Source: Methanofastidiosum sp.
Lineage (GTDB): Archaea > Methanobacteriota_B > Thermococci > Methanofastidiosales > Methanofastidiosaceae
DNA: 46,723 nucleotides
Assembly: GCA_020854815.1 (NCBI GenBank)
Contig: JAHKLW010000033.1
Coordinates: forward strand, 1-46,723
Direction of reading: 5' to 3'
The notes under the pieces: generated by a model
Databases searched by the model: none
The model's input: the letters and a program-made list of their open reading frames with translations, nothing else
What the model was told of the DNA's origin: nothing
Program-made: the position numbers and the translations under genes
Shown here: piece after piece, positions 14,268 to 46,570 of the stretch
Layout of the letters: each line of letters starts with the position of its first letter
Position numbering within the stretch: the first letter of the stretch is position 1

Positions 14268-16022
14268 TTACTTGTATTTCTTGTGTTCTTCTTCTCTGAT
14301 CTGTTGCCACTTCTTGCCTTTTCTTATACCTTCAAAGACAGGCTCAGCATCTCCTGGTCCTTTACAATATATGGCGTAGTCCATTGTTTCTGCGTATGCT
14401 GGGTCAACTGCTCCACCGGCAACTATGAATGGTACTTCTATACCCTCCTTCTTCATAAGTTCGGCTACCTTGGGGAATGCAGTTCTTGTAGTTGTCATTA
14501 ATGCTGTTCCAGATACGACATCTGGTCTTTCCTTCTTTGCTGCCTCAATTACTTTATCCCATGGAACACTTGCCCCTAGATCAGTTACTTGGTATCCCTT
14601 TGCAATCAAGATTGACTTAACAATGTCTTTTCCAATGGCGTGAACGTCACCGAATGCAACGTGCATAATAATCTTACCCTTTGGCTTGACATCTCCCATT
14701 GCGCTTTGGCAGTGGCTGATACCTTTCTTCATTGCATTTGCGGCAAGTAATATTTCAGGCACGAATGCATATCCACCATCATACATCTCTGCTACTCCAA
14801 TTGCACCAGGCAATAAGGCTTCTTCTACTAAATCGATTGGCTTTACTCCTTTCTTAAGAGCTGCTACTACTAGATCTTCAGTTGTTACAGCATCTCCTAC
14901 CATAACTGCTCTTGTAATATCTGCAAGGTCAGCATTTGTTGGTATGTATTTCTTTATGATTTCTTCTTTGCTTAGTGCGACAACTTTTCTCTTTACTTTC
15001 TTTGGTTCGCAAGCTTCGACCATTGCCCTTATGTTTGCATTTGGAGTCATTGGTGGTGTACCGCAAGCAGGTGATAGAATATCAACACCATCTGTGATAT
15101 CTCTTAATGACTGTGTGTAAACATAATCTGGTTTACCCATCATGACTACCGGGATTGTTTCCAAACTACCAACTAGTGTAACTCTGTCTCCAAGACCCAT
15201 TACAGCTTCCTTAACGGATGTACCAGGAGCTTCAAATGAGAATGCATCAAATCCAGAATGTGGAATTCTGTCCATGTAACCTCTTGTGTCACCACAGATA
15301 TGTAACATTGATACAACATCCTTTGTTTCCTTTGTTAATCTCTTATATCTTGGTTCAAGGAAATACTGGAAGTCCTTTGGATCCAATAAGTCTCCTGATG
15401 CTGTTGGATCAGGCATGTAGAATCCGTCTACACCGCTTGAATCTGCAGAGTTTCTAATGATTTCAATACATAGATCAGTACAAATATCAAGACAAGCTTC
15501 AAACTTCTTCTCTTCTTGTTTTGACCACATTAATATCCTATCAACACCAAAAAGGTGCCCTGCAATAGTCATTGGTCCGGTAACTGTTCTTAGAACGGGA
15601 ACAAGATTTTCATATTTTTCAACGAGAATCTTTGCAGACCCTTCAACTATTGGATTTCTCCCCTTTGATACAACATCTTTAGGCATGTTGTATTTTGTTG
15701 GATCAGTATTCTCAAGTGCATGCTTCAATACTGATGGATGTCTAAGGTCTGTTCCAAGGTCAATTTCTGCTCCTAGCATAGTTGCTTCAGATACTAAATC
15801 GTTATGGGATATCAATACATCTAGGCCCCAAACTTCGTATCTGCCTGCTTGGAACTGTGCCATGACCTTTGAATCTGTCTGACATGCTGGCCAAGTAACA
15901 TTTGTTGAAGCCATTAATTCTTTACAAAAGTTAGAAAGAACCATTACAGGTGTTCTATCAACACGGCCGCCTGTCATAGCGGACATGAATCTTCTATATG
16001 GTGTCATTTCTCTTAATGCCAA
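14268..16022 (-). CDS. Fused UroD-type methyltransferase and corrinoid protein
   Basis: This 584-residue protein joins two normally separate methylotrophy modules. Residues 1-340 are a uroporphyrinogen-decarboxylase-fold methyltransferase (MtaA/MtbA/CmuA type) with zinc-site residues H241 and C243 (LHICGDTRG) and C320 (SPACGTPP). Residues 355-570 are a cobalamin-binding module: a helical cap (VEEALLPGAIGVAEMYDGG), then D459-x-H461-x-x-G464 (FGDVHAIGKDIV), SGTALMTTT and VAGGAVDPAYAE. It should take a methyl group onto cobalt and pass it to a thiol, probably coenzyme M. Fused proteins of this layout were proposed in WSA2 archaea for methylated thiols, but the substrate here is inference. The start is TTG, fixed by GGAGGAGAT 3 nt upstream. 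Confidence 0.88.
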   Translation of the reverse strand: MALREMTPYRRFMSAMTGGRVDRTPVMVLSNFCKELMASTNVTWPACQTDSKVMAQFQAGRYEVWGLDVLISHNDLVSEATMLGAEIDLGTDLRHPSVLKHALENTDPTKYNMPKDVVSKGRNPIVEGSAKILVEKYENLVPVLRTVTGPMTIAGHLFGVDRILMWSKQEEKKFEACLDICTDLCIEIIRNSADSSGVDGFYMPDPTASGDLLDPKDFQYFLEPRYKRLTKETKDVVSMLHICGDTRGYMDRIPHSGFDAFSFEAPGTSVKEAVMGLGDRVTLVGSLETIPVVMMGKPDYVYTQSLRDITDGVDILSPACGTPPMTPNANIRAMVEACEPKKVKRKVVALSKEEIIKKYIPTNADLADITRAVMVGDAVTTEDLVVAALKKGVKPIDLVEEALLPGAIGVAEMYDGGYAFVPEILLAANAMKKGISHCQSAMGDVKPKGKIIMHVAFGDVHAIGKDIVKSILIAKGYQVTDLGASVPWDKVIEAAKKERPDVVSGTALMTTTRTAFPKVAELMKKEGIEVPFIVAGGAVDPAYAETMDYAIYCKGPGDAEPVFEGIRKGKKWQQIREEEHKKYK

Positions 16023-42580: not shown

Positions 42581-42997
42581 ATGACCTATCTTAGAGAGAA
42601 CATTGGCCCTAATGGAAAAAAAACAAGTCCTAGATTACTAGAAGGGTTGAAAAACTTCATTATAGATATTGATGGAGTAATATGTGATGACATACCAAAC
42701 GAAGAGCCAGAAAGGATGGGATCTGCAAATGAGATTCCAAATGCTAAATTAACTATTAATAAATGGTACGATGAAGGTCACATCATTACATTTTTTACCT
42801 CTAGAACAGAAAAAGAGAGAGATGTAACGGTCAAATGGTTAAAAGAACATGAAATCAAATACCATAACATTATTTTTGGTAAACCTAGGGGTGGAAATTA
42901 TCACTATATTGACGATAAAGACATAAGAGCGACAAGATTTGAAGGTAAATTTGGGGAGTTTGTTAAAAAAACTAAAGAAATACAAGTTTTTGAATAA
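42581..42997 (+). CDS. HAD-superfamily phosphatase-like protein
   Basis: A 138-residue protein with the HAD nucleophile motif FIIDIDGVICDD (D29, D31), motif II FFTSRT (T73/S74), motif III Lys101 in FGKPRGGNYHY and motif IV acidic pair D111-D112. The cap is nearly absent, as in small capless HAD phosphatases. The substrate could be a sugar or lipid phosphate. It stands alone, 156 nt after dnaJ, with its own promoter and a strong SD, and is followed by a long gene-free stretch. Confidence 0.82.
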   Translation: MTYLRENIGPNGKKTSPRLLEGLKNFIIDIDGVICDDIPNEEPERMGSANEIPNAKLTINKWYDEGHIITFFTSRTEKERDVTVKWLKEHEIKYHNIIFGKPRGGNYHYIDDKDIRATRFEGKFGEFVKKTKEIQVFE

Positions 42998-43326: not shown

Positions 43327-44592
43327 ATGAGTTATGAGAGTGATTTGAATTTCTATTTTTTTAATAGTTTAACTAAAAGAATAGATAAGCTAGATATACC
43401 TAAATCAAAAGAAATTAAAATGTTCACATGTGGCCCTTCAATTTACCGAAAACCACATATTGGAAATTATAGAACTTTTATATTTGAAGATATACTCCAG
43501 AGATATTTGGAATATTTGGGATATAAAGTAACAAGATTGATGAATTTTACCGATATTGAAGATAAAGCAATCGAAGAAGCTAAAGTCAAGGGGACAACTG
43601 TAAAAAAATTGACAAAAAAAATAGCAGATATATTTCATGATGAAATAAAACTTCTTAACATTAAGACTCCAACTTACATCGTAAGATCAACAGAAGCGAT
43701 TGAGGAGACAATTAATATAATTGCAAAACTGGTAGAAAAGGGCTATGCGTATTACTATAAAGAAGATATCTATTTTGATCCTACTAAATTTAAAAATTTT
43801 GGAAAACTGTATGGTCTCGACATGACTAAATGGCCAAAAAAGAAGATTCGATTTAAAAGAGATAATTATTCAAATAATGTATGGAATTTAGGTGACTTTA
43901 TTCTATGGCATTCCTGTAAAGATGAAGCCTATCCATGTTGGGATGCGCCAATAGGGAGGGGGTGGCCAGCATGGAATGCTCAAGACCCAGGGATTATTAT
44001 GCATTCATTAGGGGCTAAAGTTGATATCTGTTGTGGCGGTATTGATAACAGATTAATGCACCATGACTATAATATTGCTATAATGGAAAGCTGCTCTGGA
44101 GAAGATTTTTGCCCTTATTGGTTACATGGTCATCATCTTTTTGTAAATGGAAAAAAGATGTCAAAAAGAAAAAATAATATTCTGTATGTTGAAGATCTTA
44201 TAAAAAATGGTTATTCAATCAAAGAAATACGATTCTTTTTGATATATTCTCACTATCGTGAAAAAATGAATTTTACTTTTTACAAATTTGATAGAACTTC
44301 AATAAAACTTGATGAATTTGTAAGAATGATTAATCACATTGTAACAATGAAAAACATTGAATATTCTTCGCCTACAGTGTCAAGATTAATAGACGAGTTA
44401 TCTAATGCCTTTGAAGAAAATATGGGAAATGACTTAAATGTAAAAAAAGCTTTTGACAATGTTTATGTGATTATCAAGAAATTATATGCCTATAAACAGA
44501 AAGGGACGATTAGTGATAAAGATTCTGAACTTATTTCAAATAAAATGCTAAAAATAGATGAGGTACTACAAGTAATATTTACCAATCAGTAG
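43327..44592 (+). CDS. Cysteinyl-tRNA-synthetase-like protein with altered zinc site
   Basis: A 421-residue class I synthetase fold, colinear with CysRS: FTCGPSIYRKPHIGNYRTF (C35; HIGN at 44-47), FTDIEDKAIEEA, FILWHSCKDEAYPCWDAPIG, and KMSKR at 277-281. In E. coli CysRS the substrate-binding zinc is held by C28, C209, H234 and E238. Here the equivalents are C35, Asp220, H245 and Asn249, so two of four differ. DIHGGG has become DICCGG with new C235 and C236. It ends where the C-terminal anticodon-binding domain would begin, about 50 residues short. It may be a true but divergent CysRS or a paralogue that activates another acid. Confidence 0.8.
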   Translation: MSYESDLNFYFFNSLTKRIDKLDIPKSKEIKMFTCGPSIYRKPHIGNYRTFIFEDILQRYLEYLGYKVTRLMNFTDIEDKAIEEAKVKGTTVKKLTKKIADIFHDEIKLLNIKTPTYIVRSTEAIEETINIIAKLVEKGYAYYYKEDIYFDPTKFKNFGKLYGLDMTKWPKKKIRFKRDNYSNNVWNLGDFILWHSCKDEAYPCWDAPIGRGWPAWNAQDPGIIMHSLGAKVDICCGGIDNRLMHHDYNIAIMESCSGEDFCPYWLHGHHLFVNGKKMSKRKNNILYVEDLIKNGYSIKEIRFFLIYSHYREKMNFTFYKFDRTSIKLDEFVRMINHIVTMKNIEYSSPTVSRLIDELSNAFEENMGNDLNVKKAFDNVYVIIKKLYAYKQKGTISDKDSELISNKMLKIDEVLQVIFTNQ

Positions 44593-44600
44593 TGATCTTT

Positions 44601-45785
44601 ATGATAAGAAAATCTTTACTATTAAGAATTTTTGATTCTGCTTATATGCAAAGATGGAATGACAAAATAAGGCCTCTAGAACTTGTAGAACTTGATAAAC
44701 AGGGACATAAGATGATAATTGCCTATGTCTTGGGCAAGTACGAAGAAAAAAAGAGCGATTTCAGCTGGATAGACATAATAGAAGGAGGCATATTTGAACT
44801 TCTGCAAAGAATAGTTATTACGGACCTTAAGCCGACAATTCTCTATGAATTTAAAAAAGATGAAGACAAATACAGAAAATTAAATCAGTGGGTATTTAAA
44901 GAGCTAGAACCAGTAATATCTCCTTTAGGCACAGATTTTTCAGAGAGATTTAGGGCATACTTTAATGATAGCGACGATACATTAAATAAAAGAGTTCTTA
45001 GCGGCGCTCACTTTTATGCAACTAGGTGGGAATTTGACATAATTAAACAGTTGAATACACATGATTACGAAATGATTGGAATTGAGCGTGATCTACAACA
45101 AAAACAGAACAGATATTATGACCTTGAAGGCATAAAAGCTGGAGCTTATACCAAATTCGGGAGATTTATTAGTTTTGCTGGTCAACTTAGATTTCAGGCT
45201 AGATGGGCCCATGTACACAGAGTTCCAAAAACATCTGTATTGGGACATATGATGTTTGTTGCTATCCTATCCTACCTTTTCTCCCTTGAAATAGATGCAT
45301 GTGAGAAGAGAAGAGTGAATAATTTTTTTACCGGACTTTTTCATGATTTGCCCGAAGTCCTAACAAAGGACATACATTCCCCTTTAAAAAGATCCGTTGA
45401 AGGATTAGAGGGATTAATCAAGGGTTATGAAAAGGAGCAGATGGAAGAGAAAGTCTATCCTTTGATCCCAAAAGACTGGCATGATCAGCTTAGGATGTTT
45501 ACTGAAAATGAATTTGAGAATATCATTCACAATAAAGGAAAGCCCAAGATAATTTATGAAGATATTGAATCAGAATTTAATTTTGACAAATATTCTCCCA
45601 GAGATGGTAAACTAATTAAAGCTATTGATAAAATCTCTGCATTTATAGAGGCTTATGAAGCCATAAAGAATGGTAGTGCTAGCCCTGAATTGCATAAAGC
45701 AAGATGGTCTCTGAAATTTGAATCTGAGAAAAATCCCATTAATTCGGGAATAAATTTTGGAGAAATATATGCTGATTTCGATTAG
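44601..45785 (+). CDS. HD-domain phosphohydrolase
   Basis: A 394-residue protein whose central part carries the HD metal-binding set H206/H216/H248-D249/D257: ARWAHVHRVPKTSVLGHMMF then FTGLFHDLPEVLTKDIHSPLKR. That pattern resembles YfbR-like nucleotidases. The N-terminal 190 residues are not recognised and may be a partner-binding region. HD enzymes hydrolyse nucleotides or cyclic phosphates. The ATG at 44601 has GTGAT just upstream; a GTG at 44592 is also in frame. It follows the CysRS-like gene with 8 nt between and precedes xthA by 8 nt, so the three form an operon. Confidence 0.85.
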   Translation: MIRKSLLLRIFDSAYMQRWNDKIRPLELVELDKQGHKMIIAYVLGKYEEKKSDFSWIDIIEGGIFELLQRIVITDLKPTILYEFKKDEDKYRKLNQWVFKELEPVISPLGTDFSERFRAYFNDSDDTLNKRVLSGAHFYATRWEFDIIKQLNTHDYEMIGIERDLQQKQNRYYDLEGIKAGAYTKFGRFISFAGQLRFQARWAHVHRVPKTSVLGHMMFVAILSYLFSLEIDACEKRRVNNFFTGLFHDLPEVLTKDIHSPLKRSVEGLEGLIKGYEKEQMEEKVYPLIPKDWHDQLRMFTENEFENIIHNKGKPKIIYEDIESEFNFDKYSPRDGKLIKAIDKISAFIEAYEAIKNGSASPELHKARWSLKFESEKNPINSGINFGEIYADFD

Positions 45786-45793
45786 GTGTTTTA

Positions 45794-46570
45794 ATGAAAA
45801 AACTTAGGATAATATCTTGGAATGTAAATGGGTTGCGTTCAGTGGCAAAAAAAGGATTTTTTGAGTTCTTAGAGAACGATAGTCCAGATATACTATGTAT
45901 TCAAGAAACAAAGGCAAGAGATGAAGATATATATAACGAATTAAAAGAAATACCCGATTATTATTCTTATTTCTCTTCACCGGGAAGAAAGGGGTACAGT
46001 GGAGTAGGAGTATACTCAAAAGAAGAACCATTATCTGTGAAAACTAATTTCGGAATAGATAAGTTCGACGTAGAAGGAAGGGCCTTAATCCTTGAATATC
46101 CTAATTTTAGGCTATTAAACATCTATTTTCCAAATGGAAAAATGTCTAATGAAAGGCTGAAATACAAAATGGATTTTTATCAGATGTTTTTAGATTATAC
46201 TAAAGATTTACTTATTCAAGATAAAAAAATAATAGCATGTGGAGATGTAAATACTGCCCACAAAGAGATTGATATTGCAAGACCAAAGGAAAATGAAAAA
46301 ATATCTGGTTTTCTGCCTGAAGAAAGGGCTTGGATTGACAAATTTATTGAAACAGGATTTATAGACACTTTTCGCCATTTTAATAAAGAACCCAGCAATT
46401 ACAGCTGGTGGGACTATAAGAGTAAAGCAAGAGAACGAAATGTTGGATGGAGAATTGATTATTTTTTCATTAGTAATAATTTGATTGAAGCTTTAAATTC
46501 GGCATTTATTCTTAACAAAGTAATTGGATCTGATCATTGCCCAATAGGAATAGAACTATCAATGCCATAA
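45794..46570 (+). CDS. xthA: Exodeoxyribonuclease III / AP endonuclease
   Basis: A 258-residue EEP-superfamily nuclease with RIISWNVNGLRSV, LCIQETKA (E38), GDVNTAHKEIDIARPKEN and SDHCPIG near the C-terminus. It is the full ExoIII catalytic set, of normal length. It cuts DNA 5' of abasic sites and removes 3' blocks in base-excision repair. The SD AGGTGTTTTA spans the end of the HD gene, so it is part of the same transcript. Confidence 0.95.
   Translation: MKKLRIISWNVNGLRSVAKKGFFEFLENDSPDILCIQETKARDEDIYNELKEIPDYYSYFSSPGRKGYSGVGVYSKEEPLSVKTNFGIDKFDVEGRALILEYPNFRLLNIYFPNGKMSNERLKYKMDFYQMFLDYTKDLLIQDKKIIACGDVNTAHKEIDIARPKENEKISGFLPEERAWIDKFIETGFIDTFRHFNKEPSNYSWWDYKSKARERNVGWRIDYFFISNNLIEALNSAFILNKVIGSDHCPIGIELSMP

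Follow-up and report, generated by a model that had tools for sequence, protein, structure and literature searches.

The window analysed here, a 46,723-nucleotide stretch of a contig of the methanogen Methanofastidiosum sp., encodes a protein that resembles cysteinyl-tRNA synthetase (CysRS) but ends early and carries substitutions at two zinc-ligand positions. The initial annotation proposed either a paralogue that activates another substrate or a CysRS with a rewired metal site. Is this protein, then, the CysRS of the cell, or has the CysRS core been put to a different use? We label the product of the gene, and the family to which it belongs, CysX.

CysX is a truncated protein with the fold of CysRS

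In a profile search, the best family matches of CysX were those of CysRS, PF01406 (250 bits) and TIGR00435 (296 bits), although the latter score lies below the curated cut-off of 340 bits. Full-length CysX members in other genomes scored 275-314 bits against TIGR00435, compared to 510-584 bits for true CysRS. The profile of the mycothiol ligase MshC (TIGR03447) gave 174.5 bits and thus fell short of its cut-off of 485. AlphaFold2 models of CysX were confident, with a pLDDT of 86.8 and a pTM of 0.87 from 17 sequences and 89.8 and 0.91 from 30 sequences. The best solved-structure match of the first model was CysRS 8qhp (TM 0.87/0.89), followed by MshC (TM about 0.8). As the aligned part ends at residue 422 of the 490 residues of 8qhp, the helical bundle is kept while the anticodon-binding domain is missing, in agreement with the initial annotation. 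This domain is absent in all members of the family, whose lengths range from 403 to 433 residues apart from one of 470 with a long alternative start. Both class I signatures, HIGx and KMSK, are present and were rightly described as intact (HIGN and KMSKR, Table 1). Their preservation suggests that adenylate formation is probably retained and that CysX would still form an aminoacyl-adenylate. A further segment, residues 161-194, is highly conserved, occurs in the CysX family only and served as a search tag for relatives.

Table 1. Features of the CysX locus, in positions of the window
Feature	Position	Strand	Remark
Small HAD-like phosphatase-type protein, directly upstream of CysX	42581..42997	+	conserved there across Methanofastidiosum
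CysX, CysRS-like truncated class I ligase, 421 aa	43327..44592	+	stop TAG at 44590-44592
C35, equivalent of E. coli zinc ligand C28	43429..43431	+	invariant, 30/30
HIGN, first class I signature	43456..43467	+	N47 in 30/30 of family; His in 16 sampled CysRS
Family-specific segment LYGLDMTKWPKKKIRFKRDNYSNNVWNLGDFILW, residues 161-194	43807..43908	+	stands where CysRS has LSG...GARVEV...DFALW
W216-N217-A218-Q219-D220, in place of W-H-I-E-C (E. coli 205-209)	43972..43986	+	D220 for ligand C209, 30/30
C235-C236, in place of H224-G225	44029..44034	+	C236 in 29/30; C235 variable (10/30)
H245-H246-D247-Y248-N249, in place of HHENE	44059..44073	+	H245 = ligand H234; N249 for ligand E238
KMSKR, second class I signature	44155..44169	+	KMSK invariant in family
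HD_3 / YfbR-like HD-domain protein	44592..45785	+	after CysX; order conserved in genus
Exodeoxyribonuclease III	45794..46570	+	third gene of likely operon

The amino-acid pocket has been rebuilt

CysX was aligned residue by residue to E. coli CysRS (1li5 chain), whose zinc ligands are C28, C209, H234 and E238 and whose W205 and D229 line the amino-acid pocket. The equivalent positions are C28=C35, H206=N217, E208=Q219, C209=D220, H224=C235, G225=C236, D229=D240, H234=H245 and E238=N249. Between C209 and E238 the alignment holds without a single gap, which confirms an earlier reading, as does the incomplete set of ligands: C35 and H245 are kept, whereas D220 and N249 replace the other two. Of the two cysteines said to have been added to the pocket, C236 turned out to be a family feature with a single exception (Thr in L218), whereas C235 is variable. 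Throughout the family, WHIEC and HHENE of CysRS have become WN-x-QD and HHDY-x, with N, T, S, I or L at the E238 position, while W216, D240 and KMSK are invariant. Comparison of 30 CysX with 16 sampled CysRS sequences yielded 11 columns that are fixed one way in CysX and another way in CysRS, represented by S38, N47, E54, F158, Y181, N217, Q219, D220, C236 (29/30), D247 and Y248. The protein from the window displays all hallmarks of the family, namely N217-x-Q219-D220, HHDY, a GLDM[ST]KWP-like segment, the missing anticodon-binding domain and a place in the one clade. Since its orthologues in the genus carry the same pocket residues and all 30 homologues share the change to D220, an error in a single assembly does not account for them.

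Overall, CysX has in common with CysRS (cysS) the fold, the PF01406 catalytic domain, HIGx, KMSK and the equivalents of W205, D229, C28 and H234. It differs by C209->D, E238->N/T/S/I/L, H206->N, E208->Q and G225->C, by the lack of the anticodon-binding domain, by its score under the curated cut-off and by its separate clade. MshC resembles CysX in being a truncated free-standing CysRS paralogue that has lost the E238 equivalent and has Tyr in HHxY (Y248 position). The statement that MshC keeps the zinc site applies only in part: the Mycobacterium smegmatis enzyme reads WHVEC, GGGSD and HHEYS and therefore retains the equivalents of C209 and H234, whereas Ser stands in for E238. As MshC has also lost the fourth ligand, only the loss of C209 sets the CysX family apart at the zinc site: MshC keeps WHVEC and GGGSD, whereas CysX has WN-x-QD in 30/30 sequences. 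The zinc-site fragment of M. smegmatis MshC is 52% identical to CysRS and 36% identical to CysX.

Judging from these residues, CysX would not form the canonical four-ligand cysteine-binding zinc and probably prefers another amino acid; we put the chance of a switch away from cysteine at roughly even. On the other hand, D220, C35, H245 and C236 may yet coordinate a metal. With such a rewired site, made up of C35, D220, H245 and perhaps C236, CysX would activate cysteine and ligate it to an acceptor other than tRNA, giving a low-molecular-weight thiol as a counterpart of MshC. Asp and Cys can bind zinc, C35, H245 and D220 are invariant with C236 close behind (29/30), and MshC uses cysteine despite lacking the fourth ligand. 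Still, we consider this unlikely given that C209, fixed in 16/16 sampled CysRS and kept in MshC, is replaced in 30/30 CysX together with H206 and E208, that C236 is Thr in one member, and that the CysX neighbours looked at included no mycothiol-type genes.

CysX forms a family of its own

The 30 relatives compared belong to four groups: Methanofastidiosum, Bathyarchaeia, Desulfobacterales and Nitrospirota. CysX was present in 9 of 10 Methanofastidiosum genomes searched (67-81% identity). When each species was represented by a single genome, the close relatives proved to belong to Candidatus Methanofastidiosum. Additional scans found CysX in 9/155 sampled genomes of Desulfobacterales, 4/257 of Bathyarchaeia and 8/396 of Nitrospirota (strict motif); motif counts are lower bounds, and the samples include some already known carriers. 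An HMM of the family scored full-length members at 618-719 bits and CysRS at 252-310 bits, with only two fragments in between. In a tree calculated without MshC and CysRS* sequences, all 30 CysX lie on one side of a 100/100 branch with a long stem, and the cellular CysRS of CysX-bearing genomes are all found outside this clade. Tree, HMM gap and pocket columns together rule out that CysX is an ordinary archaeal CysRS, and the tree does not place it among these enzymes.

Close CysX pairs have dN/dS values of 0.06-0.13, which identifies CysX as a working gene under purifying selection. CysX is thus a distinct truncated CysRS paralogue with a rebuilt pocket that is maintained by selection. Because this pocket is common to about 30 relatives in four distant groups, CysX probably represents a so far unstudied enzyme family doing a different job from CysRS. 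We found no description of it in the open-licence literature on CysRS paralogues, MshC-like proteins and Methanofastidiosum. The many ligand-pocket positions unlike CysRS would also fit a catalytically silent regulator, but pseudoenzymes usually lose the signatures, whereas KMSK, W216 and D240 are invariant in CysX and dN/dS is low, and such a role seems very unlikely. A function in defence was rejected as PADLOC returned no match.

The searches brought up other CysRS-like genes. About 500 Klebsiella plasmid records contain a CysRS-like gene that matches CysX; the matches listed are about 29% identical, and for some of them the only annotation is DALR domain protein. Two loci (L085:592-2895 and L086:1501-3801) encode a fusion of cysteine synthase with a CysRS-like domain without KMSKS, and many of the 155 Desulfobacterales genomes contain CysRS-matching ORFs of like size (about 720-820 aa).

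Cys-tRNA is most likely supplied without CysX

The initial annotation had suggested a search of the same genome for a second CysRS or for SepRS/SepCysS. No second CysRS-like gene was detectable in the source genome or in ten Methanofastidiosum genomes, and the source genome itself carries both SepRS and SepCysS. Across the genus, SepRS scored above the cut-off in 9/10 genomes, as did SepCysS, whose gene is divided between two contigs in the remaining genome. This agrees with Mukai et al., who list Methanofastidiosa among the holders of SepRS (PMC5424206). An overlooked canonical CysRS was rejected, as the source genome is 96% complete and has a single strong PF01406 match; the weaker matches are partial and fall in ORFs of greater length, the pattern that other class I synthetases would give. 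The source genome has one genuine tRNA(Cys), which was also recovered in two other Methanofastidiosum genomes. A second tRNA(Cys) was discarded as a private substrate of CysX because it sits on a contaminant-like contig. The genes of this contig (C10, L198), which has its own tRNA-Cys, resemble those of a contaminating candidate phyla radiation bacterium. With SepRS/SepCysS present, no other CysRS and one genuine tRNA(Cys), the most likely source of Cys-tRNA in Methanofastidiosum is SepRS/SepCysS, a supply that does not depend on CysX.

CysX might nevertheless act on the same tRNA(Cys) as a backup or direct-route CysRS beside SepRS/SepCysS. It is the sole CysRS-like gene in Methanofastidiosum, and both routes coexist in some methanogens (PMC8762117). 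However, the CysRS pocket and the anticodon-binding domain have been lost family-wide, and CysX elsewhere coexists with a true CysRS, so that we regard a backup function as highly improbable. Among 11 genomes checked from outside Methanofastidiosum, 10 have a canonical CysRS (510-584 bits) alongside CysX; none was seen in the eleventh, G120, which may reflect an incomplete assembly. Together with the separate clade, the presence of SepRS/SepCysS strongly supports the earlier proposal of a paralogue, and the refutation test set out with that proposal failed. CysX is not the CysRS of the cell. In another family of the same order (f3), five genomes (G014-G018) have neither a detectable CysRS nor CysX and presumably use SepRS.

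A possible RNA acceptor for CysX

The catalytic core of a synthetase has been reused without anticodon recognition in GluQRS and EpmA, which come from different parent synthetases and serve as an analogy only. CysRS* (cysS*) of Desulfobacterales is, like CysX, a CysRS paralogue without the anticodon-binding domain and nevertheless charges selC* tRNA (PMC7609411, PMC9437257). According to its description, cysS* sits in a selC*-selB* cluster; CysX does not and also occurs in genomes without selC*. Likewise, CysX could aminoacylate an RNA, either the body of a tRNA or one of its nucleosides, with no need to read the anticodon, comparable to CysRS*/selC* or to GluQRS and queuosine. This would agree with the stand-alone CysX gene of Desulfobacterales and with two Nitrospirota genomes that carry, besides CysX, 92-95-nt tRNA-Cys(GCA) genes scoring as tRNA-Sec and thus selC*-like (L110:1501-1592 and L122:1497-1591, both on the minus strand). 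However, no selC*-like tRNA above the cut-off was present in Methanofastidiosum or Bathyarchaeum and none was found near CysX, none of the 45 tRNAs of the source genome is unusual, and the MATE partner described below is hard to account for. Neither a tRNA-Cys nor a tRNA-Sec gene was found in the CysX family loci scanned, and no selB* was seen among the neighbouring ORFs of the loci read by eye. On balance, an RNA acceptor appears unlikely.

Gene neighbourhoods differ between lineages

In Methanofastidiosum, the order HAD-like gene, CysX, HD-domain gene and exoIII is conserved. The HD-domain gene is likely co-transcribed with CysX; the GTG listed as its start shares one base with the CysX stop, and an ATG lies nine bases further along. 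In Nitrospirota, a MATE exporter gene lies directly upstream of CysX on the same strand at 8/11 loci, the family being confirmed for three, which suggests that a small CysX product is pumped out. In two lineages of Bathyarchaeia, genes for DNA polymerase IV and formylmethanofuran dehydrogenase are located downstream of CysX, and the pol IV gene separates CysX from the formylmethanofuran dehydrogenase operon (L196, L065). Pol IV also adjoins CysX in Desulfobacterales L063 and L064. The CysX loci of this order showed no conserved neighbours. As the context differs by lineage, no single pathway is indicated, and a link to the Fwd/H4MPT cluster as a general function was set aside since it is conserved in two Bathyarchaeia lineages only. 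Elsewhere in the window, a 584-aa ORF (14268-16022, minus strand) fuses a methylcobamide:CoM methyltransferase of the MtaA/CmuA type to an MtaC-type corrinoid protein.

Proposed function and meaning

Our best explanation, which may equally well prove right or wrong, is that CysX is a free-standing CysRS-derived amino-acid ligase that no longer charges tRNA(Cys) and acts like MshC without being MshC. The aminoacyl group would pass to a small-molecule amine or another acceptor that is not tRNA(Cys), as in MshC. Both the likeness to MshC (truncation, Tyr and missing Glu) and the MATE partner speak more for a small-molecule product than for an RNA acceptor, and in Nitrospirota this product would be exported through the adjacent MATE. 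More tentatively, and with somewhat less than even confidence, we propose that CysX comprises horizontally spread ligases that activate a non-cysteine amino acid without the cysteine-specific zinc and form an aminoacyl conjugate that is exported in some bacteria.

Known reuses of the CysRS core are few, namely MshC and CysRS* (PMC9437257). CysX would add a third that spans archaea and bacteria and has lost the C209 equivalent kept by MshC. Genome annotation is likely to mislabel CysX as cysteine--tRNA ligase. In Methanofastidiosum, CysX persists despite charging by SepRS/SepCysS and is therefore kept for another purpose; identifying its product could bring to light a new cofactor, thiol or RNA modification of anaerobes.
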